From: Desulfofundulus salinus
GTDB lineage: Bacteria > Bacillota > Desulfotomaculia > Desulfotomaculales > Desulfovirgulaceae
NCBI RefSeq assembly: GCF_003627965.1
Contig: NZ_RBWE01000001.1
Location: forward strand, 2,271,328 to 2,335,327
Direction of reading: 5' to 3'
DNA length: 64,000 nt
In this document: piece after piece, positions 12,440 through 24,947 of the stretch
Layout: every line of letters starts with the position of its first letter
Position numbering within the stretch: position 1 is the first letter of the stretch
Position numbers and translations under genes: made by a program
The notes under the pieces: model-generated
Databases searched by the model: none
Told to the model about the DNA's origin: nothing
The model's input: only the letters and a program-made list of their open reading frames with translations

Positions 12440-13252
12440 TCACTCCTCCTGTTTTCCTGGAGACTCAGGTTCAACACAAGCCACCATGTTTTTCCCTTCC
12501 TTTTTTGCCTTATACATGGCCCTGTCAGCTTGAGCTATCAGGTCACTTACACTGGCAGTTCCCCTGCCGCTATATTCCGTAGCCCCAATACTGGCCGTGA
12601 CAACCACGTCCATTTCTGGCAATAACCTCTGCCCTGCTATCTGGGATCTTATACGCTCCAGGGCAATCTGCGATCTATTCAGGCTGGTATCCGGCAGCAT
12701 AATTATAAATTCCTCTCCACCGTACCGAACCACCTTATCCGCAGCCCGCAAAGCCTTCTTTATGATGCCGGCCGCAGCAATTAAAACCTGGTCACCCGCA
12801 TGGTGGCCGAACCGGTCGTTTATCACTTTAAAATCATCAAGATCCAGCATGGCAACCACCAGCGGCTTTCCCTTCCTCTGAGCTTCTCTAAGGAGCTGGT
12901 TCAATAACGGGTATAAAGCGAGCCTGTTATACAATCCTGTAAGCGGGTCGTGTTCTATCCTGTCTTTAAGCTGCAGAAGAAAACTATCAATGACAACCAG
13001 TATTTGAGCCAGGAATTCCGTAGCGCGATCTATGTATATCCACTGGACGGGATCGCTATCCCGGCGGATGCCCATTACCTCTCGAAGTGCCCTGGTGTGG
13101 ATATCCAGAATATTTGCCGCCTGAACATGTTTCTCATCCAGGCTGTGTGTCAGGTCCTGATAGGCTTCCACGAGTACTCCTTCGGTTCCACCCTCACACA
13201 CATATCGTTCAAGGTAATTTTTATAAGTATTGTAAAAGGCCTCTGAAGCCAA
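12440..13252 (-). CDS. Diguanylate cyclase with RsbU_N-like N-terminal domain
   Basis: Makes cyclic di-GMP from GTP. The C-terminal GGDEF domain begins HDPLTGLYNR and has the active-site motif RYGGEEF. An intact RxxD inhibitory site (RAAD) lies five residues before GGEEF, so product feedback is expected. The N-terminal part (about residues 1-80, with SEAFYNTYKNYLERYV and DIHTRALREV) resembles the RsbU N-terminal domain that binds the switch kinase RsbT. The TTG at 13252 fits the GGAGGAGGT site and starts one base after the rsbX stop. In Moorella thermoacetica an equivalent gene is the output of the stressosome; the same gene order here supports that role. An upstream start at 13306 is possible. 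Confidence 0.88.
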   Translation of the reverse strand: MASEAFYNTYKNYLERYVCEGGTEGVLVEAYQDLTHSLDEKHVQAANILDIHTRALREVMGIRRDSDPVQWIYIDRATEFLAQILVVIDSFLLQLKDRIEHDPLTGLYNRLALYPLLNQLLREAQRKGKPLVVAMLDLDDFKVINDRFGHHAGDQVLIAAAGIIKKALRAADKVVRYGGEEFIIMLPDTSLNRSQIALERIRSQIAGQRLLPEMDVVVTASIGATEYSGRGTASVSDLIAQADRAMYKAKKEGKNMVACVEPESPGKQEE

Positions 13253-13253
13253 C

Positions 13254-13865
13254 TCAGGTGCACCTCCTCCCCACCAGTACGCTGGCATCGTCTTCCGGAA
13301 CACCATATTTCTCCATTATCGTAACCGCCAGGTATAGGCCATCCTGTCGCCACAGATGTCCGTCACCCCGGTCGGGCACAAAGCTACGCCTTATCCCATC
13401 AGAACATACTATTACAAGAGCATAATCATCAATCCTTACATTCCGGATAACCGGCACAAGCCTCCGCCCTCCCACCACCCCGGGCTGCCCCGGCAAAAAC
13501 TCCAACCTTTTATCACCAATCATCCAGCCCCTTATGTTCCCCACCATGATATAACTTAGAGTCGCATTGTCCAGGGTACCGAGGAAGAGGGTACATCCCC
13601 GGATTCTGGCAGCGACCCTTTCGATATCACCATACACACCCGGCAGGTCTTCTCTACGCTCTTCCAGAACTCTGTGCAGCCCTTCCGCACAGCGATGAGC
13701 TTCTTCACCGTGCCCCAGCACATCCACTACTGAAATATAAAGCTTATCATTTCCTTTATATGCATAACAAAGGTCCCCGCCCACTGGATAGCCCGTCCGC
13801 GGCCTCCAGCACGACCAGACCTCCCAGCCGTGGCCGGACGCTGTGGCCTGTTTAAAGAAAGTCAA
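13254..13865 (-). CDS. rsbX: RsbX-like serine phosphatase of the stressosome
   Basis: A 203-residue PP2C/SpoIIE-type phosphatase. It has GGDLCYAY and VVDVLGHGEEA in the metal-binding region and LVIVCSDGIRRSF later; the length is that of RsbX. RsbX dephosphorylates RsbR and RsbS and resets the stressosome. The TTG start overlaps the rsbT stop (TTTTGA) and has an AGGAGG site eight bases upstream. It is the fourth gene of the rsbR-rsbS-rsbT-rsbX-cyclase unit. Confidence 0.85.
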   Translation of the reverse strand: MTFFKQATASGHGWEVWSCWRPRTGYPVGGDLCYAYKGNDKLYISVVDVLGHGEEAHRCAEGLHRVLEERREDLPGVYGDIERVAARIRGCTLFLGTLDNATLSYIMVGNIRGWMIGDKRLEFLPGQPGVVGGRRLVPVIRNVRIDDYALVIVCSDGIRRSFVPDRGDGHLWRQDGLYLAVTIMEKYGVPEDDASVLVGRRCT

Positions 13866-14317
13866 AATGCACGCCTCCTCTTCTCCGTAATAACCACCGT
13901 CCCCTTACCCACTTCGGAATGAATGGCGAAGGAATCCATCAGACGTTTTACTCCCGAAAGGCCTATACCGAGACTGCGCTCCCACGTGGTATAGCCCCGC
14001 GTCAAGACCAGCTCGATATCAGGGATACCGGGGCCGCGGTCGGCGGCAATTACTTCAATGCCCGGACTGTCCCTGTCCTCCAGCCGCTTTCTTATCATTA
14101 TCCTGCCCTGCCTGGCGTACCGGTAGATATTCCGGGCCAGCTCCGAAACCGCAGTGGCTATCCTGGTAACATCGGCCAGGGAAAAGCCGATCTCCTGGGC
14201 CAGTTGTTTGGCCATCTGCCGTGCTACGGCAATGTCTTCCTCTCGAGTAATGCGGACCACTATATCGAATTCCTGCGCCGGGTCCTCAATTATGGAGGTT
14301 ATTTTTTCCTCATACAC
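13862..14317 (-). CDS. rsbT: RsbT-like switch kinase (HATPase)
   Basis: Serine kinase of the GHKL ATPase fold. It phosphorylates STAS proteins RsbS and RsbR, then leaves the stressosome to activate its target. The N-box is SELARNIYRYA, the G1 box is ADRGPGIPDIELVLTRGY and the G2-like loop is SLGIGLSGVKRLMD, all characteristic of RsbT. The GTG at 14317 overlaps the end of rsbS and is preferred for its GGAGAGGG site; a longer frame to 14401 lies inside rsbS. Its likely partner here is the RsbU_N-like domain of the cyclase at 12440. Confidence 0.88.
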   Translation of the reverse strand: MYEEKITSIIEDPAQEFDIVVRITREEDIAVARQMAKQLAQEIGFSLADVTRIATAVSELARNIYRYARQGRIMIRKRLEDRDSPGIEVIAADRGPGIPDIELVLTRGYTTWERSLGIGLSGVKRLMDSFAIHSEVGKGTVVITEKRRRAF

Positions 14318-14702
14318 CTTTATCCCTCTCCTGGAAAGAGCCGGCCAGTACCAGGGCATGTTCCAGATTCCGCGCCACCGCGACCTCCTGCAGCGTGACA
14401 CCCATCTGGGCCAGAGTCAAAGCTACAGGGGGTTGAATGCCGCACAATACAGTGCGGCACCCCATAAGGCGGGCCATAGCAGCCGTTTCAGAAAGGGTGT
14501 ATGATATATAGCTATCAATCACTTCCACCATCCTTACATCCAGTATAACCGCCCTGGCCCTCGTCCGCTCGATTTCCTTCAAAAGCTGCTGCTGCAGCCG
14601 TCCTACCGTTCTGTCGTCCAGGTCGATCTGGATGGGCACCAGCAGGTAGCCATCCACCTGCATAATGGGCACAACCCTGTCCTCAAAGCTCATCATCTTC
14701 AC
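14310..14702 (-). CDS. rsbS: RsbS-like stressosome STAS antagonist
   Basis: Single STAS-domain protein of 130 residues that forms the stressosome core and holds RsbT inactive. The phosphorylatable serine is in VEVIDSYISYTL, and the MGCRTVLCGIQPPVALTLAQ segment is family typical. GTG 14702 or the ATG pair just after it are possible starts. It overlaps rsbR upstream by 20 bases and rsbT downstream by 8, so the three are tightly coupled. Confidence 0.88.
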   Translation of the reverse strand: MKMMSFEDRVVPIMQVDGYLLVPIQIDLDDRTVGRLQQQLLKEIERTRARAVILDVRMVEVIDSYISYTLSETAAMARLMGCRTVLCGIQPPVALTLAQMGVTLQEVAVARNLEHALVLAGSFQERDKGV

Positions 14703-15423
14703 CGCTTTCTTCCAGCCTACCGCCCGCCAGGCTTAGGGCAAGCTGCCTGCGCCTCTTCCTTTCTTCCATGGTTATGGCTATCCCGCGGCGGAGAGCATCC
14801 TCCAGGTCCCTGGCGACTGTAACCATCTGGAAGTCTACTCCCAGTTTGACAAGGGTATGGGCAACCTCCGGCTTGATACCGGTAAGAATGACCTCGGCAC
14901 CCAGGAACTTTATGGCGTTAAACATCTCCATAAGAAATCCCCCGACCACCGTATCGATCATGGGGACACCCGTAACATCCACCAGCACCACTTTCGCCCT
15001 GACGGAACTCACCCTGTTCAGCAATCTCTCCGCGATATTCTGGGCACGCTGGCCATCCAGGTTCCCAATCATGGCTACCAGTAAAATATCCGTCCATATA
15101 CGGATTATCGGGGTGGCCAGCTCCGAAAGCATCTGGCGGAGCTGCATTAAAATATGCTCATTTTCGCGCCGCATCTCCCCGGAAACCTTCAATGCGGCCC
15201 GGAGTATATCAACAGCGGGAAAAGAAGCATGTTCTGCAATATGCAGTATTTTCGACCCTACTTCTTCTTCACCCAGCTCTTCAATTAAAGACCGCAGGGC
15301 TTCAAATAAGCCGTCTGCTGCTTTTTTGCTCAACGCTTCCTCCATAACCCGGCACCACAGGTCTTTTTGCCTGCCGTCTGTCGTGAGGCCATTGACGATT
15401 TCCGTCACCTTAATAGCATCCAT
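14683..15423 (-). CDS. rsbR: RsbR-like stressosome co-antagonist
   Basis: Stressosome scaffold and sensor protein. The C-terminal STAS domain (from LSELATPIIRIWTDILLVAMIG) has the conserved phospho-threonine context GVPMIDTVVGGFLM and the ILTGIKPEVAHTLVKLGVDF stretch. The N-terminal 110 residues form the variable sensor turret; no haem or flavin motif is visible. The ATG at 15423 fits a GGAGGG box eight bases upstream. It is the first gene of the operon; a riboswitch-like leader with a terminator lies just upstream (15548-15620). Confidence 0.87.
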   Translation of the reverse strand: MDAIKVTEIVNGLTTDGRQKDLWCRVMEEALSKKAADGLFEALRSLIEELGEEEVGSKILHIAEHASFPAVDILRAALKVSGEMRRENEHILMQLRQMLSELATPIIRIWTDILLVAMIGNLDGQRAQNIAERLLNRVSSVRAKVVLVDVTGVPMIDTVVGGFLMEMFNAIKFLGAEVILTGIKPEVAHTLVKLGVDFQMVTVARDLEDALRRGIAITMEERKRRRQLALSLAGGRLEESGEDDEL

Positions 15424-15547
15424 CAATACTTCCCTCCATAGCCTGTAGCCTGAAGACCATTTTTTGCTATTTCGACATAATTCCTTGTTTTCCTGCCGGA
15501 AGCTCCCGCAGGAGCTGCCCTTTCAAAACGCCTTCATTAATGAGAAA

Positions 15548-15580
15548 ACTGCAGGGAAAAACCCTGACTTCCCTGCAGCT
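15548..15580 (-). terminator. Terminator in the leader of the stressosome operon
   Basis: On the minus strand CTGCAGGGA pairs with TCCCTGCAG around a loop, followed by TTTTCTC. It lies 125 bases upstream of rsbR. It closely resembles the terminator of the c-di-GMP riboswitch at 24482-24520 (CCGCAGGGA stem), so it may be the expression platform of a riboswitch relative. Confidence 0.6.
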
Positions 15581-15591
15581 ACGTTCCTCTC

Positions 15592-15640
15592 CTGCAACCC
15601 GGCCTTCATGATTACTTCTAACTCAATTAAACCACTGTCT
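15592..15640 (-). promoter_or_regulatory. GEMM-I riboswitch 3'-half remnant or variant
   Basis: Minus-strand GTAATCATGAAGGCCGGGTTGC matches the 3' part of class I c-di-GMP aptamers; the intact copy here has CATGACGGCTGGGTTGC. The terminator downstream is also shared. The 5' half (GGCAAACC, the GAAA loop, GACGCAAAGCC) is not recognisable in the 115 bases between it and the upstream HD-GYP gene. So it is either a decayed aptamer or a diverged RNA. Confidence 0.45.
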
Positions 15641-15734: not shown

Positions 15735-16967
15735 TTAATCCTGCACCAGAACGCCGGGGTTGTTCCGGCAGACGACCAGGCACGCCTCCACCACCTGCGG
15801 GTCGTAAAGGATGCCGCTGTTCCGGCTGATTTCTTCCAGGGCGGCCTCCATACCCAGGGCGGCCCGGTAGGGCCGGTGCGAAGCCATGGATTCCACCACG
15901 TCGGCAACACCCAGAATCCGGGCCTCGGGAATGATGGCCTCTCCCCGCAGCCCGTCCGGGTAACCGCTCCCGTCCATTCTCTCGTGGTGCTGCAGCAGTG
16001 CCTGCGATACCGGCCAGGGAAACTCTATCCCCTTCAGCACCTCGAACCCCAGCACCGGGTGCAACCTGATCAGCTGCATCTCCGGTTCCGTCAGCCGGCG
16101 CGGTGCGGTGAGGATCTCTGCCGGGATGGCCATCTTCCCTATATCATGCAGCAACGCGGCGAGCCGGAGACCCTCCACCCGGTCTTCCGGCCACCCCATC
16201 TCCCGGGCGATGGCGCAGGCCAGCCGGGCCACCCGCATCTGGTGGCCGGCTGTGTACGGGTCCCGTAGCTCCAGCATCCTGCTGAGAGCCTCTACCGTAC
16301 CGTACAGCATCTGCCGGAGCCGGACGACCGTTTCGTCCAGCTTTCTTTCCAGGCGCAGCCGCTTGATCCCAAGGGCAATGTCGCCTGCAATTTCGGCGAG
16401 AAAGGCCATTTCTTCGGGGTCAAAAGCGTCCGGCAGGTGGGAATAAACATTAAGGATTCCCACAACTTCGCCCTCGTGCACCAGGGGAACAGCCGCGCTT
16501 GACGCATAGCCACGGCGTACCGCTTCCTCGCGCCAGGGCGTATGCTGCGGGTCGCAACATATATCCCGTACCACTACGGGCTCGCCCGTTCTGATGGCTG
16601 CGCCGGTCGGTCCGGGATCCGTCTGGCTGTCGTCCCAGGTAACCTTTACTGAACGCAGGTAGCCGTTCTCAAAACCGCTGTGGGCAATGGGCGTCACGCC
16701 AAATGTCTCTTTCTCGGCAAGACCAATCCAGGCAAACCTGATAAATTCGAGCCCGGCGAGAAGCTCGCAAATGCGCTTGAACAGCTCGCTCTCCTCGCGA
16801 ACCTCAAGAAGGAGATGATTTACTTCTCTGGTAATCAGAATATGGGCCTTAAGCCAGTTAGTATCCGGGGCTGTCCCGGAATTTTTCTCCGGACTTTGAG
16901 CTGGGACAACCCTTTCCTCGCTGTTCACTCCAACCTTCACTCCCATGGGTATGTCTAATGCTCTCAA
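15735..16967 (-). CDS. GAF and HD-GYP domain protein, putative c-di-GMP phosphodiesterase
   Basis: A 410-residue two-domain signalling protein. A GAF domain covers about residues 45-205 (FIRFAWIGLAEKE, SAAVPLVHEGEVVGILNVYS). An HD-GYP domain then carries HQMRVARLACAIA, LLHDIGKMAIP, HP, HHERMDGSGYPDGLRGEAI and ILGVADVVESMASHRPYR, so the metal and GYP residues are present. HD-GYP domains usually hydrolyse c-di-GMP. The TTG at 16967 and GTGs at 16940 and 16928 are possible starts; 16928 has the best GAAGG spacing. It lies upstream of the stressosome operon on the same strand. A degenerate GEMM-I-like RNA lies about 310 bases upstream. Confidence 0.88.
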   Translation of the reverse strand: MRALDIPMGVKVGVNSEERVVPAQSPEKNSGTAPDTNWLKAHILITREVNHLLLEVREESELFKRICELLAGLEFIRFAWIGLAEKETFGVTPIAHSGFENGYLRSVKVTWDDSQTDPGPTGAAIRTGEPVVVRDICCDPQHTPWREEAVRRGYASSAAVPLVHEGEVVGILNVYSHLPDAFDPEEMAFLAEIAGDIALGIKRLRLERKLDETVVRLRQMLYGTVEALSRMLELRDPYTAGHQMRVARLACAIAREMGWPEDRVEGLRLAALLHDIGKMAIPAEILTAPRRLTEPEMQLIRLHPVLGFEVLKGIEFPWPVSQALLQHHERMDGSGYPDGLRGEAIIPEARILGVADVVESMASHRPYRAALGMEAALEEISRNSGILYDPQVVEACLVVCRNNPGVLVQD

Positions 16968-17277: not shown

Positions 17278-17358
17278 GCGCAAATAATGATTCCCTGCAG
17301 GAAACTAAAGACCCCTTATTTAGTCCCCGGCCTTCACCGGGCCTGCTTTCCCGGAGGC
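17278..17358 (-). promoter_or_regulatory. Degenerate GEMM-I (c-di-GMP riboswitch) relative
   Basis: Minus-strand CCCGGTGAAGGCCGGGGAC followed by GGGGTCTTTAG and then GTTTCCTGCAGGGAATCAT aligns with the intact aptamer at 24534-24620 (CCCGGCGAAAGCCGGGGAC, AGGTCTAAAG, GTTCCCCGCGGGGAACCAT). The core GCAAAGCC and the final GGGTTGC are lost or changed. It stands upstream of the GAF-HD-GYP gene, so it is probably a dead or retuned c-di-GMP riboswitch. Confidence 0.45.
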
Positions 17359-20534: not shown

Positions 20535-21950
20535 TTACGATGGGTCCAGGTAGAGGTAGTTTTTCCCTCGTTCCTTTGCCTGATAGCAGGCTTGATCCGC
20601 CCTTGCAAGCAGCGAGTCGACAGAATCGTTTTTTTTCGCCTGGGCCACCCCCAGGCTTGCCGTAATCCGGCGGTGCGGGAAAGGGTTAATCTCAATAGAT
20701 TTACGTATTCTTTCTGCCACTTTCGCAGCATCTCCCCCTTTTGTCCCCGGGAGAACGATTATAAACTCTTCGCCCCCGTAACGGCACGCAATATCCGTAG
20801 TCCTGATGGAGTTTTTTATTAACTCTGCCGTCTTCTGCAGCACCACATCGCCGGCCAGGTGCCCGAAAGTGTCGTTATAAACCTTGAAGTCATCTATGTC
20901 CAGGAAAATAACCGACAGGTGGTAACCGTACCTCGCTGCCCTCTGAAGTTCGGTAGCCAGTACATCCCGCAGAACGCGCCTGTTAAGAAAACCGGTCAAA
21001 AAGTCAGTTTCGGCTTCTCTTTCCAGGCGGCGTATGAGAGTCGCATTGGCCAGGGCTACCGCGGCGAAGTTTATATATATCTGCAGGTTTTTACTGCCGT
21101 TGTCACCCAGGGAAACAGGGGCCGCTATACCCAATAACCCGACAATTCCCAGAGCAGTCCAGAGGGGATAAACCATGATTTCAGTTCCGGGAGCAGCATC
21201 TGTACCGGTAAAGCCCGGTAAAACCTTCAGCTCCTCAATACTCAAAGACGACGGCTCAACTTTTGAAAAAATCCGCTCAATCAACGGATGAACCAGTGGC
21301 CATTCCTTCCCGATCAACAGGTTGCCACGCACACCTTTGCCCTGCGCGACCCTGATTTTATCACCTTCCCTGAGGCCGACAAAACATAAATCGGCTTGAT
21401 AAATTATGATCAACGAATTCGTTATGAGTTCCAGAACCCTGTCCAGTTCGACGATCGAGGTCATAAGGCGGCTGATCTCGTAGATGCTGTTCAGCTCCAG
21501 CCTCCGTAAACCTAACAGGTTCCTTTCCAGAATGGCGTTAAAAACCTCATTGATCGTCCGGTAAACGTTATGTGCTTTCGTGATGAAAGCAATTTCTTCC
21601 TCGCGTTCCATCAGGGTTGTATGCCCGGCAGGAGCAACTATGAGATACCCTATCTTCTGGGCATAGCTGCCCAGACGGTACGCGCAAAGCTTAAGTCCAT
21701 AAGGACAGGTGAGCATGTCTTTATCTTCTGTCGAACCGCAGGCAGACCTGTAAAAATCGATACATTTTTCATTACGGAGCTCCCTCCCCTTATTTACCTC
21801 CTGGCATAATTCAGCCGGCAAACTGAACCGGGAAAAAGGATCACCGTTCGCATCAAAGATGTAGACATTTGCATTCATGGCCCTGGCCAGCGTATCTTGA
21901 AAATCCTGCCAGTACCTTACCGAAATATTAAGTAAAAGGTTTGGATGCAT
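20535..21950 (-). CDS. PocR-GAF-GGDEF diguanylate cyclase
   Basis: A 471-residue sensor cyclase. The N-terminal 140 residues fit a PocR-type ligand domain (YWQDFQDTLARAMNANVYIFD, CQEVNKG, CPYGLKLCAYRL) with several Cys. A GAF domain follows (about 165-310), then a GGDEF domain with TDFLTGFLNRR, RYGGEEF and an RxxD inhibitory site (RTTD) five residues before it. So it should make c-di-GMP with product inhibition. ATG 21950 has a GAGGTG site. It begins 12 bases after the KaiC-like gene and is the last gene of the riboswitch-led operon. Confidence 0.9.
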   Translation of the reverse strand: MHPNLLLNISVRYWQDFQDTLARAMNANVYIFDANGDPFSRFSLPAELCQEVNKGRELRNEKCIDFYRSACGSTEDKDMLTCPYGLKLCAYRLGSYAQKIGYLIVAPAGHTTLMEREEEIAFITKAHNVYRTINEVFNAILERNLLGLRRLELNSIYEISRLMTSIVELDRVLELITNSLIIIYQADLCFVGLREGDKIRVAQGKGVRGNLLIGKEWPLVHPLIERIFSKVEPSSLSIEELKVLPGFTGTDAAPGTEIMVYPLWTALGIVGLLGIAAPVSLGDNGSKNLQIYINFAAVALANATLIRRLEREAETDFLTGFLNRRVLRDVLATELQRAARYGYHLSVIFLDIDDFKVYNDTFGHLAGDVVLQKTAELIKNSIRTTDIACRYGGEEFIIVLPGTKGGDAAKVAERIRKSIEINPFPHRRITASLGVAQAKKNDSVDSLLARADQACYQAKERGKNYLYLDPS

Positions 21951-21962
21951 TCAGTAAACACC

Positions 21963-23366
21963 TCATTTTAGCATATCTGCTTTGTCCAATCTACCGAGGA
22001 TATTTATCCCCTCTGGGGCAATCTCATACTCCCTCAGGGACTTGTCGTGGTCGCTTCCACGGGCTTTCAAGATTCCAAGAACTTTTCTGATGCTGGAGTT
22101 ATCCTCCACGTACCGCAGTATGATTATATTATCGGTAATCAGGGATAATTGCGCTCTGGATACTATAAGAGGCGAAAAGAGGTCTTCGTTGAGCACCGTA
22201 AAAATAGTGGTGACGTGCCGCTTCCTGAGGTGTTGTCCTATCGCCCAGAGATAATCCCTGTACTTTTGTATATCGGTAACGCTGCTTTCAAAGGAGGAGA
22301 TGCTGTCGATGACAAACCTCTCCACCTTTTTTTCCCTGATCATGTCCAGTATCTCAAAAGCGTGTTTATCTACGTCCAGTTCTATGGGGGAAATAAACTT
22401 GATCTCCAGCTGGCCCTCTGCCAGATATCTATCTATCTCCCAGCCCAGACAGCGGGCAGTATTCTGAAGTTGAACCGCAGGCTCTTCAAAAGAAAGGAAT
22501 ATCCCCTTTTCGCCTTTCTCAGCCCCTTCCAGTAAGAACTTTAGGGCAAACATCGTCTTGCCCGTACCTGTGGCACCGGAGATGAGTGTGATAGTTCCTT
22601 CCAGTAACCCACCGCACAACATTTCGTCCAGTCCACAGATCCCGAATTCCTTTCGCCCCAGCTTGACATCGTACCGGAGTTCTTCACCCTCCGGTCTCAT
22701 CCTTGGGTACACTTCTATCCCCACAGGACCAATTTGAAACAAATGTTCCCCATATTGAAAACTGGTTCCCCTCATTTTCAGAATACGCATATACCTTTTT
22801 TGAAATCGCTTTTCTTCCTGTCCGTAAAGGTGAAAAATCCCATCGGCGATGGCAAACTCGCTCAGACGCGTCAGCTCCTGTTCTTCGTACTCGCCGACGA
22901 GAAACGCAGTGATCTCCCATATCGAAAGAACGGCAGCCAGCTCAAAAACAAAGGCCCTGAAGGTCTTCTCGTCCGGGAAGAGGTCCCTTATAACCTTGAC
23001 ACTATCGATTACAACTATGTTTGGCAAATGTTCTTTGATCATTTGAGTCAGGTAGTCCAGGCCCCTGCTCGCACCTTGTTTGCGCAGGACCTCCCCAAGA
23101 TCCCCGTAAATAACCCTGTCCCCCAGCAAATCATCTGAGAAAAACTCAAAATCCTGGAGATGCCTCACCATCTTCAACTGTGATTCCGATATAGTGGTCA
23201 GGTATAGACTTTTGAGGCCGTTCCTGGCATTATTAAATATAATATGCTGGACGAATATCGTCTTTCCACTGCCCGGAGAACCGGAAACGATATTCAATGA
23301 ATAAGCAGGTATGCCGCCACCAAGAATATAATCAAGATTTTTTATGCCCGTTATCAACCTCTCCAT
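21963..23366 (-). CDS. Double KaiC-like RecA-fold ATPase
   Basis: A 467-residue protein with two KaiC/RadA-type ATPase domains. The first Walker A is GSPGSGKT (residues 29-36) with a Walker B-like NIVVIDSV. The second is GATGTGKT (264-271) with FSFEEPAVQ-like catalytic acids (ISFEEP context) and RFVIDSISSFES. The duplicated layout is that of circadian KaiC, but KaiA and KaiB are absent. Such KaiC-like proteins outside cyanobacteria are mostly uncharacterised. It starts 3 bases after a small unknown gene and precedes a cyclase, inside an operon under a c-di-GMP riboswitch. It may act as an ATP-driven timer or scaffold for c-di-GMP output; that is inference. Confidence 0.87.
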   Translation of the reverse strand: MERLITGIKNLDYILGGGIPAYSLNIVSGSPGSGKTIFVQHIIFNNARNGLKSLYLTTISESQLKMVRHLQDFEFFSDDLLGDRVIYGDLGEVLRKQGASRGLDYLTQMIKEHLPNIVVIDSVKVIRDLFPDEKTFRAFVFELAAVLSIWEITAFLVGEYEEQELTRLSEFAIADGIFHLYGQEEKRFQKRYMRILKMRGTSFQYGEHLFQIGPVGIEVYPRMRPEGEELRYDVKLGRKEFGICGLDEMLCGGLLEGTITLISGATGTGKTMFALKFLLEGAEKGEKGIFLSFEEPAVQLQNTARCLGWEIDRYLAEGQLEIKFISPIELDVDKHAFEILDMIREKKVERFVIDSISSFESSVTDIQKYRDYLWAIGQHLRKRHVTTIFTVLNEDLFSPLIVSRAQLSLITDNIIILRYVEDNSSIRKVLGILKARGSDHDKSLREYEIAPEGINILGRLDKADMLK

Positions 23367-23369
23367 CTC

Positions 23370-23738
23370 TCATTCCCCCCTGGAAGCAGAAAGATCCCCG
23401 GCAAATTCCTCGTCCAGCTTCTTTCTAATCTCTTCCGCTCTTTCATGCCCGAGAAGCCTGGCCAGGATTTCTACATACCTGGTGATAAACTTCATAAACA
23501 TGTCTTCGACCGGCAGGTCCGGGTTTTCCTCCAACCTGGCCGCCATCTTCGCGCACGATATCCCATTTTGATCGTACTGCAGGAGTTCTATTTCCTTGTA
23601 TTCCAGCGAAACCTCCCATACGACCCTTTCCACCAGAAGATTCACGGAAAACGTCCCAAGGTACTTGGACGACGCGGTCCACATTTCTCTCAGCAAAGTT
23701 TCATAGTGCCCGATCCGTTTTTCGATGATTTCGCTCAC
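23370..23738 (-). CDS. Hypothetical partner protein of the KaiC-like ATPase
   Basis: A 122-residue, soluble, probably all-helical acidic protein of no family I recognise (VSEIIEKRIGHYETLL at the start, FITRYVEILARLLGHERA near the end). The GTG at 23738 is preferred for GGAGGGGG five bases upstream; an ATG at 23753 has no site. It ends 3 bases before the KaiC-like start, so the two are coupled and may interact. No transmembrane or metal motif is seen. Confidence 0.75.
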   Translation of the reverse strand: MSEIIEKRIGHYETLLREMWTASSKYLGTFSVNLLVERVVWEVSLEYKEIELLQYDQNGISCAKMAARLEENPDLPVEDMFMKFITRYVEILARLLGHERAEEIRKKLDEEFAGDLSASRGE

Positions 23739-23801
23739 AACAGCCCCCTCCATTTCAGCTAAAAGCTATCGCTCCAGTATGAACAAGGCCCGGTTTCCCG
23801 G

Positions 23802-24434
23802 TTAGTTATTTCGCAAGTGCTTAACACCTCCAGGAATATCATCAGTGATCCGGTAGAGTTCAGGATCTATTCCCTCAGGCACGACCCGGCAGCAAAACAC
23901 TTCCACCAGCTGCGGGTCGAATTGAGTACCAGCACAGCGGAAGAGCTCCTCTGAGGCCATTTCTTTAGACATCCTGGGCCGGTAAACCCGATCCGAAGTC
24001 ATGGCATCAAAACTATCAGCCACGGCCAGAATTCGCGCCCCCAGGGGAATGGCCTCACCCCCCAATCCTTCCGGATACCCGCAACCGTCATATCTTTCGT
24101 GATGGTAAAGGGCCATAAGGCTGATGGCTTTCATCCCCGGTATGGCCGAAAGGATTTCATAACTATAAACAGGGTGCTTTTTTATTTCCTCCCACTCCGC
24201 GGCTGTCAGTTTGCCCGGCTTATGCAGGATAGCACTGGAAATGCCCAGCTTTCCTATGTCGTGGAGCAACCCGGCCAGGTATATACGATTCTGTTCCTTT
24301 TCAGGCATACCCAATTTCTTCGCGAGCGCAGCAGCATAGGCAGCCACGCGCCAGGAATGATTGGAAGAAACCTTAAACCGGACCTCATGTAATTTCATCA
24401 ACGCCCGGGCAGCATGGATAAATGTGGATTTCAT
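23802..24434 (-). CDS. HD-GYP domain protein, putative c-di-GMP phosphodiesterase
   Basis: A stand-alone HD-GYP domain of 210 residues: NHSWRVAAYAAALAKKLG, LLHDIGKLGISSAIL, HPVYSYEIL, HHERYDGCGYPEGLGGEAIP and ILAVADSFDAMTSDRVYRP. All HD and GYP residues are present. It probably hydrolyses c-di-GMP. ATG 24434 has a GAGGTG site. It is the first gene after the intact c-di-GMP riboswitch and its terminator, followed by the small unknown, KaiC-like and cyclase genes on the same strand. Confidence 0.9.
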   Translation of the reverse strand: MKSTFIHAARALMKLHEVRFKVSSNHSWRVAAYAAALAKKLGMPEKEQNRIYLAGLLHDIGKLGISSAILHKPGKLTAAEWEEIKKHPVYSYEILSAIPGMKAISLMALYHHERYDGCGYPEGLGGEAIPLGARILAVADSFDAMTSDRVYRPRMSKEMASEELFRCAGTQFDPQLVEVFCCRVVPEGIDPELYRITDDIPGGVKHLRNN

Positions 24435-24481
24435 GGAAGCACCTCAACGTATTTATTCTAAAAATTTCTTTAGAAAATGAA

Positions 24482-24520
24482 AAGCCGCAGGGAGAAAAAT
24501 TTTACGCTTCCCTGCGGCTT
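24482..24520 (-). terminator. Riboswitch expression-platform terminator
   Basis: A 12-bp perfect stem (AAGCCGCAGGGA with TCCCTGCGGCTT) with a T-rich tail on the minus strand, directly after the GEMM-I aptamer and 48 bases before the HD-GYP start. It is the likely off-switch of the leader. Confidence 0.85.
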
Positions 24521-24530
24521 CCCTTCTCCC

Positions 24531-24626
24531 CTTGCAACCCAGCCGTCATGGTTCCCCGCGGGGAACTTTAGACCTGTGGCTTTGCGTCCCCGGCTTTCGC
24601 CGGGTTTGCCCTCCGGAAAGTTGCGA
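24531..24626 (-). ncRNA. Class I cyclic di-GMP riboswitch (GEMM-I) aptamer
   Basis: On the minus strand the conserved elements come in order: GGAGGGCAAACC, a hairpin with CCCGGCGAAAGCCGGG, GGACGCAAAGCCACAGG, CTAAAG, a second hairpin GTTCCCCGCGGGGAAC, CATGACGGC and GGGTTGC. These are the core positions of the GEMM-I family, including the GAAA tetraloop and the ligand-binding GACGCAAAGCC. A terminator follows. The controlled operon encodes an HD-GYP protein, a small unknown, a KaiC-like ATPase and a diguanylate cyclase. c-di-GMP therefore probably regulates genes for both its breakdown and its synthesis. Confidence 0.92.
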
Positions 24627-24627
24627 C

Positions 24628-24673
24628 TTTTCAAGAGGTATTTCAACATTTTTTCAAGATGTATTTCAACATT
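24628..24673. repeat. 23-bp tandem repeat upstream of the riboswitch
   Basis: Two adjacent 23-base units, TTTTCAAGAGGTATTTCAACATT and its near copy, differ at one position. They lie immediately upstream of the aptamer on its strand and carry TTGAAA boxes, so they may be part of the promoter or a binding site. Confidence 0.75.
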
Positions 24674-24947
24674 ACCGTTAACTTTTCCTCCTGATTAAGG
24701 TGATTTTCGGTAATATCAACGGCATCCTCATCCTGAGAAAACCGTTCCAACGGCCCGGTAATAAAGGGCCGGTTCTGGGAAAACTCAAGCCTGAGTTGCT
24801 TCCTGGCCGTGCTCCGGCCAACCCCATTACACCGAATCCGCGCGGACCCGCATGAACGGGGTGTGAGAGGAGGGGGTTAGCCGCCCCCTCCTGCTCGATA
24901 TCCTAAAAGCTCTTGCGTTAATCAATCCCCGCCGGCGGTCGGGGCAC
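24674..24947. other. Intergenic region with several hairpins
   Basis: Between the MCP gene and the riboswitch promoter area. It holds CGGCCC/GGGCCG at 24751-24771, a strong AGGAGGGGG/CCCCCTCCT hairpin at 24868-24892 and a CCCCG/CGGGG hairpin at 24927-24944 just after the MCP stop, which may terminate that transcript. A 75-codon open frame on the minus strand has no start site or family resemblance. Confidence 0.45.

Follow-up and report, generated by a model that had tools for sequence, protein, structure and literature searches.

Among c-di-GMP riboswitches, Vc2 and Cd1 of C. difficile provide the closest described parallels to the one analyzed here, and Cd1 is an OFF riboswitch located before flgB. 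Archaeal KaiC-like ATPases are said by Makarova, Galperin and Koonin to serve as signalling hubs. The KaiC-based clock of cyanobacteria is affected by c-di-GMP, probably indirectly (PMC13001216). The stressosome of Moorella thermoacetica has been reported to act on its own diguanylate cyclase (cited in PMC4976288). According to a review, c-di-GMP riboswitches rarely control c-di-GMP metabolic genes (PMC6366702), whereas the operon described below, found in a 64-kb stretch of Desulfofundulus salinus DNA (the window), is led by such a riboswitch and carries both the enzyme that breaks down c-di-GMP and the enzyme that makes it. The sign of the feedback is thus directly testable.

Results

The c-di-GMP aptamer

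Searching the 64-kb window with the covariance model RF01051 gave a match of 75.1 bits (E 6.3e-13) at positions 24530-24620 (-), well above the gathering score of 35 bits. A sequence-only reading had recognized a GEMM-I core here and named the covariance search as a check, and the search bore it out. This intact aptamer is one of seven c-di-GMP-I matches in the whole genome. In the covariance alignment both ligand-contacting bases, which we take to be the equivalents of G20 and C92 in Vc2 numbering, are kept, and position 20 is G, as in the c-di-GMP type, rather than the A20 of cGAMP variants. Judged by these features, the window aptamer is predicted to be a genuine c-di-GMP sensor RNA. It is similar to Vc2 and Cd1 in sequence, structure, ligand-contacting bases and presence of an intrinsic terminator, but differs from both in preceding c-di-GMP metabolic genes.

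Genes of the operon

The genes for an HD-GYP protein, U127, a KaiC-like ATPase and a diguanylate cyclase follow the leader, all on the (-) strand and closely spaced. This agrees with the operon proposed earlier; the span given for it, 21950-24626, leaves the last gene (20535-21950) outside. The predicted HD-GYP was confirmed as a stand-alone phosphodiesterase (23802-24434 (-); PF13487, 143 bits) with intact motifs in one domain: HDIGK at residue 58, HHERYDG at 111 and GYP at 119 (HHERYDGCGYP). After a gap of 48-63 bp comes U127 (23370-23738 (-)), a helical orphan about 122 aa long, characterized by a 16-member alignment and an AF2 model (pLDDT 84). The size of 122 residues given previously is right if GTG 23738 is the start, which is where homologues begin; the alternative ATG 23753 gives 127 aa. 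U127 matches no Pfam or NCBIfam family, and its model has no PDB fold match (no Foldseek hit at E <= 0.001). An RsbR-like globin was considered and dropped, the sole hint being a PDB match with E 0.56. No U127 was found in phage records.

The operon ends with a PocR-GAF-GGDEF diguanylate cyclase (20535-21950 (-)). Its PocR domain matches PF10114 (30.7 bits, cut-off 23.9) and its GGDEF domain matches PF00990 (160 bits). The active site GGEEF (residue 392) and the RxxD inhibitory site (R383, D386), the latter already read as intact from the sequence, are intact and invariant in 16 homologues; alignment of homologues also showed C49, C63 and C82 of the PocR part to be invariant. No Pfam model matches the GAF part; in an AlphaFold model of moderate confidence (pTM 0.42) the order of elements is GAF-like, and Foldseek matched this model to sensor-domain cyclases, e.g. 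4zmu.

The KaiC-like ATPase

The expected double-domain KaiC-like ATPase (21963-23366 (-)) was identified by PF06745, which matches in two stretches (288 bits), by PDB matches to KaiC and by alignment. Mean column identity in an alignment of 20 members is 87%, and the protein is about 80% identical across families. Its likeness to cyanobacterial KaiC consists in two RecA-like domains with Walker motifs, including Walker A, in both, a Glu-Glu pair in the C-terminal domain and the Ser431 equivalent (S408). Unlike cyanobacterial KaiC, it has leucine (L409, invariant in 20 homologues) at the T432 position, lacks the C-terminal KaiA-binding tail, has lost the first catalytic Glu of the N-terminal domain and is encoded in a c-di-GMP operon. 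No PF07689 match, and hence no KaiB, was detected in the genome by a search that found the control Synechococcus KaiB. The score against the clock KaiC family TIGR02655 is 177 bits, below the cut-off of 546. The name of "clock" ATPase was accordingly withdrawn: as far as its sequence tells, the window KaiC is not a clock protein.

Conservation of gene order

The order U127-KaiC-PocR/GGDEF is kept in 24 of 26 related loci. Distribution of this trio is patchy (18 of 398 phylum genomes), and among the 19 phylum genomes with this KaiC, 17 also encode U127. The lasting core of the operon is, by the criterion of gene order, this non-clock trio. Apart from the window, three close relatives alone (L008, L009 and L055) have the riboswitch and HD-GYP gene directly ahead of it; in the other related loci no c-di-GMP-I riboswitch directly precedes the trio. 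This weakens the case for a conserved circuit of riboswitch, phosphodiesterase, cyclase and KaiC, the set noted in the sequence-only reading. A second GEMM-I/HD-GYP pair is located elsewhere in the genome (L004), apart from the trio, suggesting that the pair ahead of the trio joined it as a cassette.

In two distant relatives the cyclase is replaced by a histidine kinase. In L067, U127-KaiC is followed by the kinase and then by a response regulator, and the first 211 residues of the kinase match the PocR/GAF part of the window cyclase (26%, E 4e-12). In L073 the order is U127-KaiC-kinase with a response regulator nearby; this kinase has no detectable similarity to the window cyclase. These replacements make U127-KaiC look like an input unit whose output can be exchanged. 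Archaeal KaiC hubs are similar in that a KaiC-like ATPase adjoins interchangeable sensor and output modules; the window system differs in belonging to a bacterium, in having the orphan U127 as partner and in its cyclase output.

The stressosome neighbourhood

An adjoining stressosome-cyclase operon and two decayed riboswitches had been overlooked in the sequence-only reading. RsbR- and RsbS-type STAS proteins (14683-15423 and 14310-14702, both (-), PF01740) are encoded in one operon with an RsbT-type switch kinase of HATPase type (13862-14323 (-), PF13581). These are followed by a weak RsbX-like phosphatase (13254-13865 (-)), assigned from a PF07228 match below cut-off and its position in the cluster, and by a terminal diguanylate cyclase (12440-13255 (-); PF00990, 160 bits), which occupies the position of the Moorella stressosome cyclase. 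The RsbR-RsbS-RsbT-RsbX-GGDEF gene set of M. thermoacetica is therefore also present in the window; in contrast to Moorella, the window and 11 related loci have the U127-KaiC-PocR/GGDEF trio alongside. U127 and RsbS co-occur in 11 of 18 cases, where 1.7 would be expected (p 2.8e-8 with no correction for kinship). The two papers found to name both stressosome and KaiC seemed unrelated, as judged by titles and abstracts.

One decayed GEMM-I leader (17287-17355 (-)) precedes a gene for a GAF-HD-GYP phosphodiesterase (15735-16967 (-); PF13185 and PF13487). The other (15539-15613 (-)), ahead of the stressosome operon, has lost its 5' half and kept its terminator; its orthologue in L008 is fuller (36.4 bits). 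As an Rfam search of the two window leaders gave no match to a c-di-GMP family even at E 10, their identification is based on nucleotide homology to intact leaders (blastn, E 2e-4 and 2e-7 with 3 kb searched). By this homology, the window holds two decayed paralogues of the riboswitch.

Folding of the leader

The 12-bp terminator noted in the sequence was verified as a strong intrinsic hairpin of 12-15 bp (24482-24520 (-)) directly followed by a T-rich tail (24470-24481), and in folding stability the leader exceeds shuffled sequences by 3.8 SD. The hairpin is missing from the output of a simple consensus scan because its loop exceeds the length allowed. BSnc120 also matched here, with 26.4 bits against a cut-off of 114, and this overlap with the terminator was taken as chance.

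Folds of growing transcripts predicted an antiterminator with the 5' strand GUUGCAAGGGGAGAA (24524-24538 (-)), which overlaps the P1 3' strand. The same pairing was predicted in five leaders, four orthologous and one paralogous (L004), of which four are near identical and together worth little more than one. Compared with shuffles, the antiterminator duplex reaches only the 0.7-4% level. When the full-length window leader is folded, the terminator is favoured by 6-10 kcal/mol, so that OFF logic would require a kinetic decision; the antiterminator stays favoured only in L004.

Discussion

Our preferred reading, to which we give an even chance, is a c-di-GMP homeostasis operon of two pieces with different history, the riboswitch with HD-GYP and the older trio, in which the ligand would shut the operon off and U127-KaiC would set the PocR/GAF sensor protein. 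When c-di-GMP is absent, the linker that follows the aptamer (the P1 3' strand) would pair with the terminator 3' arm and allow read-through. With c-di-GMP bound, P1 would be locked, the terminator would form and expression of the operon would cease; at high c-di-GMP neither the breaker nor the maker would then be newly made. Leader folding suggests, short of proof, this OFF sign. The opposite sign, with c-di-GMP permitting read-out and the phosphodiesterase making the pulse self-limiting, has precedent in class I riboswitches with terminators of ON type (Bc3-5, PMC4759541), and induction of a phosphodiesterase by its ligand makes simple homeostatic sense. We nevertheless consider an ON switch unlikely, since the two alternative pairings in growing transcripts (P1 3' strand with terminator 3' arm and, at 150 nt, P1 5' strand with terminator 5' arm) both use P1 strands, and locking P1 would free the terminator. 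It is somewhat doubtful, too, that the riboswitch governs only HD-GYP, with the trio on its own promoter and the shared transcript a by-product of cassette insertion. The trio stands alone in many genomes and would need its own promoter there; most related loci have it without the riboswitch, the pair at L004 lies apart from it, and a gap of 48-63 bp lies ahead of U127. Against this, all genes are co-directional and close together. A simple scan gave no promoter-like site in that gap either, but this promoter/terminator consensus scan performed at chance level and was set aside as evidence.

For the U127-KaiC pair, a timer or hourglass setting a daily c-di-GMP rhythm would fit the double KaiC fold and the close sequence relatives among PDB clock KaiC; with KaiB absent from the genome and T432, the KaiA tail and the first N-terminal Glu all lost, this is hardly credible. 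Membership of the RecA superfamily would also agree with a RecA/RadA-like action of both proteins on nucleic acid, their sharing of an operon with c-di-GMP enzymes being merely incidental. The conserved neighbours are, however, signalling genes (GGDEF, kinase and response regulator, HD-GYP, stressosome), which makes such a role improbable. From the conserved neighbourhood we infer instead that U127 and the KaiC-like ATPase may form an ATP-state-dependent partner complex that regulates the PocR/GAF sensor protein, whose output would be c-di-GMP synthesis in this lineage and a histidine kinase with response regulator in distant relatives. This module would add a second input beside the stressosome.

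Literature searches for a KaiC-like protein together with a diguanylate cyclase, and for a c-di-GMP riboswitch together with Desulfotomaculum, found no paper. The operon appears to be a variant on known parts, with the U127-KaiC module as a promising and undescribed element. We tentatively propose, at somewhat less than even chance, that in this module an ATPase reading the ATP state and a new helical partner directly gate a PocR-bearing output enzyme, with diguanylate cyclase and histidine kinase swapped in evolution, and that it works beside the stressosome. If this is true, a conserved orphan and a non-clock KaiC, tied to a cyclase in some genomes and to a histidine kinase in others, would indicate a role of KaiC-like proteins other than timekeeping. 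The link to the stressosome cyclase offers a concrete place for testing the idea of an energy-state input, and many KaiC-like ATPases outside clocks may then be energy-state inputs for signalling proteins.

Organization of the operon

Analysis of the window, from a 2.89 Mb genome, with cmscan located an intact c-di-GMP-I aptamer at 24530-24620 on the minus strand (75.1 bits). After it comes a GC-rich terminator hairpin (24482-24520) with a T-rich tail, and the leader has a folding energy of -78.8 kcal/mol (z -3.8). Downstream on the same strand the first gene encodes an HD-GYP protein (23802-24434). It is followed by the genes for U127 (23370-23738), an orphan roughly 122 residues long, for a double-domain KaiC-like ATPase (21963-23366) and for a PocR-GAF-GGDEF protein (20535-21950); these last three are referred to as the trio. 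Covariance search, folding and gene identities bear out the riboswitch, terminator and gene set proposed in the sequence-only reading, whose coordinates were correct except for omitting the last gene. Immediately 5′ of the aptamer, at 24625-24675 (minus strand), is a roughly 24-nt direct repeat (TGTTGAAATAC[A/C]TCTTGAAAA), a possible promoter or binding site. It is largely conserved in locus L055 and in the closest named loci, L008 (Desulfovirgula sp. MAG) and L009 (Desulfofundulus thermosubterraneus), whose KaiC-like proteins are 94-96% identical to that of the window.

Motifs of the encoded proteins

The HD-GYP protein has the motifs HDIGK and HHERYDGCGYP. In the cyclase GGEEF and the RxxD site are invariant across 16 homologues; its PocR part exceeds the Pfam cut-off and its GAF part was recognised only through structure prediction. 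The U127 model is confident and helical (pLDDT 84), and no counterpart fold was found for it in the PDB.

Walker A is present in both domains of the KaiC-like protein, and Glu-Glu is confined to the C-terminal domain, the N-terminal domain having S60-E61. At the S431 and T432 positions of KaiC, all 20 homologues have Ser and Leu, respectively. The protein stops about 10 residues past the core and thus lacks the KaiA-binding tail. No KaiB was found in the window's genome by a search that recovered the Synechococcus control. The name 'clock ATPase', suggested from the sequence, does not suit this protein.

Folding of the leader

In folds of growing transcripts, the stretch 3′ of the aptamer, GUUGC-AA-GGGGAGAA, was base-paired to UUCUCCCUGC in the terminator 3′ arm. 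With that arm partly made, four orthologous leaders and the paralogous L004 leader all had this antiterminator as their best fold. GGGGAG of the post-aptamer stretch can alternatively close P1 with the 5′-side CUUUCC, and in a transcript of 150 nt the 5′ strand of P1 instead pairs with the terminator 5′ arm. By locking P1, c-di-GMP would break both alternative pairings, leading to termination and turning the operon OFF. Since both would be broken, OFF by termination is the simplest reading of the leader, a suggestive but unproven one. Class I switches of the OFF type (Cd1, before flgB; PMC6366702) and of the ON type (Bc3-5; PMC4759541) both exist. In the window leader the antiterminator is ahead by 2-3 kcal/mol until eight arm bases are made, and afterwards the terminator by 6-10 kcal/mol; with such predicted energetics the choice can only be a kinetic one. 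In the L004 leader the antiterminator remains favoured. Because 0.7-4% of strand shuffles equal the duplex strength, the antiterminator is likewise suggestive, not proven.

Conservation of the trio and proposed origin of the riboswitch

Gene-by-gene comparison took in 17 related loci of one collection together with additional loci out of a phylum sample of 398 genomes. The trio genes are adjacent and in identical order in 24 of 26 loci, the exceptions being L060 and L067, with KaiC halved or the cyclase replaced. KaiC identity across families is mostly 76-86%, falling to 65-67% at the edge. Of the 398 genomes in the phylum sample, 18 carry U127 and 19 carry this type of KaiC, with 17 having both. 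The trio is absent from G252, a member of the same genus, which argues that it has been gained and lost.

Several loci depart from the common arrangement. L075 (G252) retains GAF-HD-GYP and the stressosome. In L076 (G276, same genus) about 40 kb separate trio and stressosome, and a recombinase-like gene is found close to the stressosome side. The trio is broken in L024/L064 (Fervidicola), the cyclase being interrupted by transposase-like genes and KaiC split. In L060 (G048) strong GEMM-I riboswitches, scoring 83.1 and 77.4 bits, stand on either side of a diverged U127 and half-length KaiC, which adjoin two HD-GYP genes. L021 is a trio on an Atribacteria MAG contig (identity 56/67/52%), reflecting either inter-phylum transfer or misbinning. 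The window's genome has a second KaiC cluster (L025-L029, C1:1329089-1331159) comprising a double KaiC and a single KaiC domain (458 and 239 aa, respectively), without U127 and with an acyl-CoA synthetase-like gene nearby.

Among the loci compared, the window, L008, L009 and L055 are alone in having a riboswitch and HD-GYP gene immediately ahead of the trio; at the remaining trio loci HD-GYP genes are unrelated, upstream or downstream, or absent. In the same genome, at L004, GEMM-I and HD-GYP are paired once more; the leader is similar, and the gene that comes next is chemoreceptor-like. From this restriction to four loci and the second pair we infer that riboswitch and phosphodiesterase moved as one and were set ahead of an older trio.

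Other GEMM-I riboswitches of this genome include a tandem pair (L005/L007; C1:1567591, 1567859) before a flagellar operon with flgB/flgC/fliE-like genes, each with a terminator-like hairpin, the second scoring below the gathering score. Three more lie between pilT-like and pilC-like genes (L001, C1:1391171), before a PilZ-like/HATPase protein (L002, C1:552967) and before an ion-transporter-type permease (L006, C1:755946), names that come from reading the sequence only.

The stressosome neighbourhood

A GAF-HD-GYP gene (15735-16967) lies 3.6 kb past the trio, and behind it an RsbR-RsbS-RsbT-RsbX-like-GGDEF operon (15423-12440). This operon resembles the arrangement in Moorella; a stressosome with its own diguanylate cyclase is mentioned for M. 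thermoacetica in a 2016 paper (PMC4976288). A stressosome-cyclase cluster is found within about 10 kb of the trio in 11 related loci, and in the 398-genome sample RsbS of this type occurs in 11 of 18 U127 genomes against 1.7 expected (p 2.8e-8, kinship ignored). By blastn, decayed leaders homologous to the intact one precede GAF-HD-GYP (17287-17355) and the stressosome operon (15539-15613). Neither was matched in the Rfam search of the window; the orthologous place of the latter in L008 gives a weak match (36.4 bits). At one time, then, c-di-GMP control probably extended to three transcripts in this island, or was copied to them, and a single copy is still intact.

A possible exchange of the output

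Two distant relatives, L067 and L073, have U127 at 26-28% and KaiC at 40% identity, and the gene after them codes for a histidine kinase; a response regulator is encoded nearby. Over residues 1-211 the L067 kinase matches the PocR-GAF region of the window cyclase (26%, E 4e-12); the L073 kinase gave no match to that cyclase. In L074 KaiC of this type lies beside response regulators and U127 was not detected. A kinase in the place of the cyclase, together with the L074 regulators, suggests that U127-KaiC is a constant input unit with an exchangeable terminal enzyme.

Each of the components, riboswitch, HD-GYP, GGDEF, KaiC fold and stressosome, belongs to a known kind. According to a review, c-di-GMP-I riboswitches seldom have c-di-GMP metabolic genes under their control (PMC6366702). 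A literature search covering few subscription papers returned none linking 'KaiC-like' with 'diguanylate cyclase', and the papers it gave that name both stressosome and KaiC appear unrelated. The riboswitch is not the most promising part of the find; the U127-KaiC module is.
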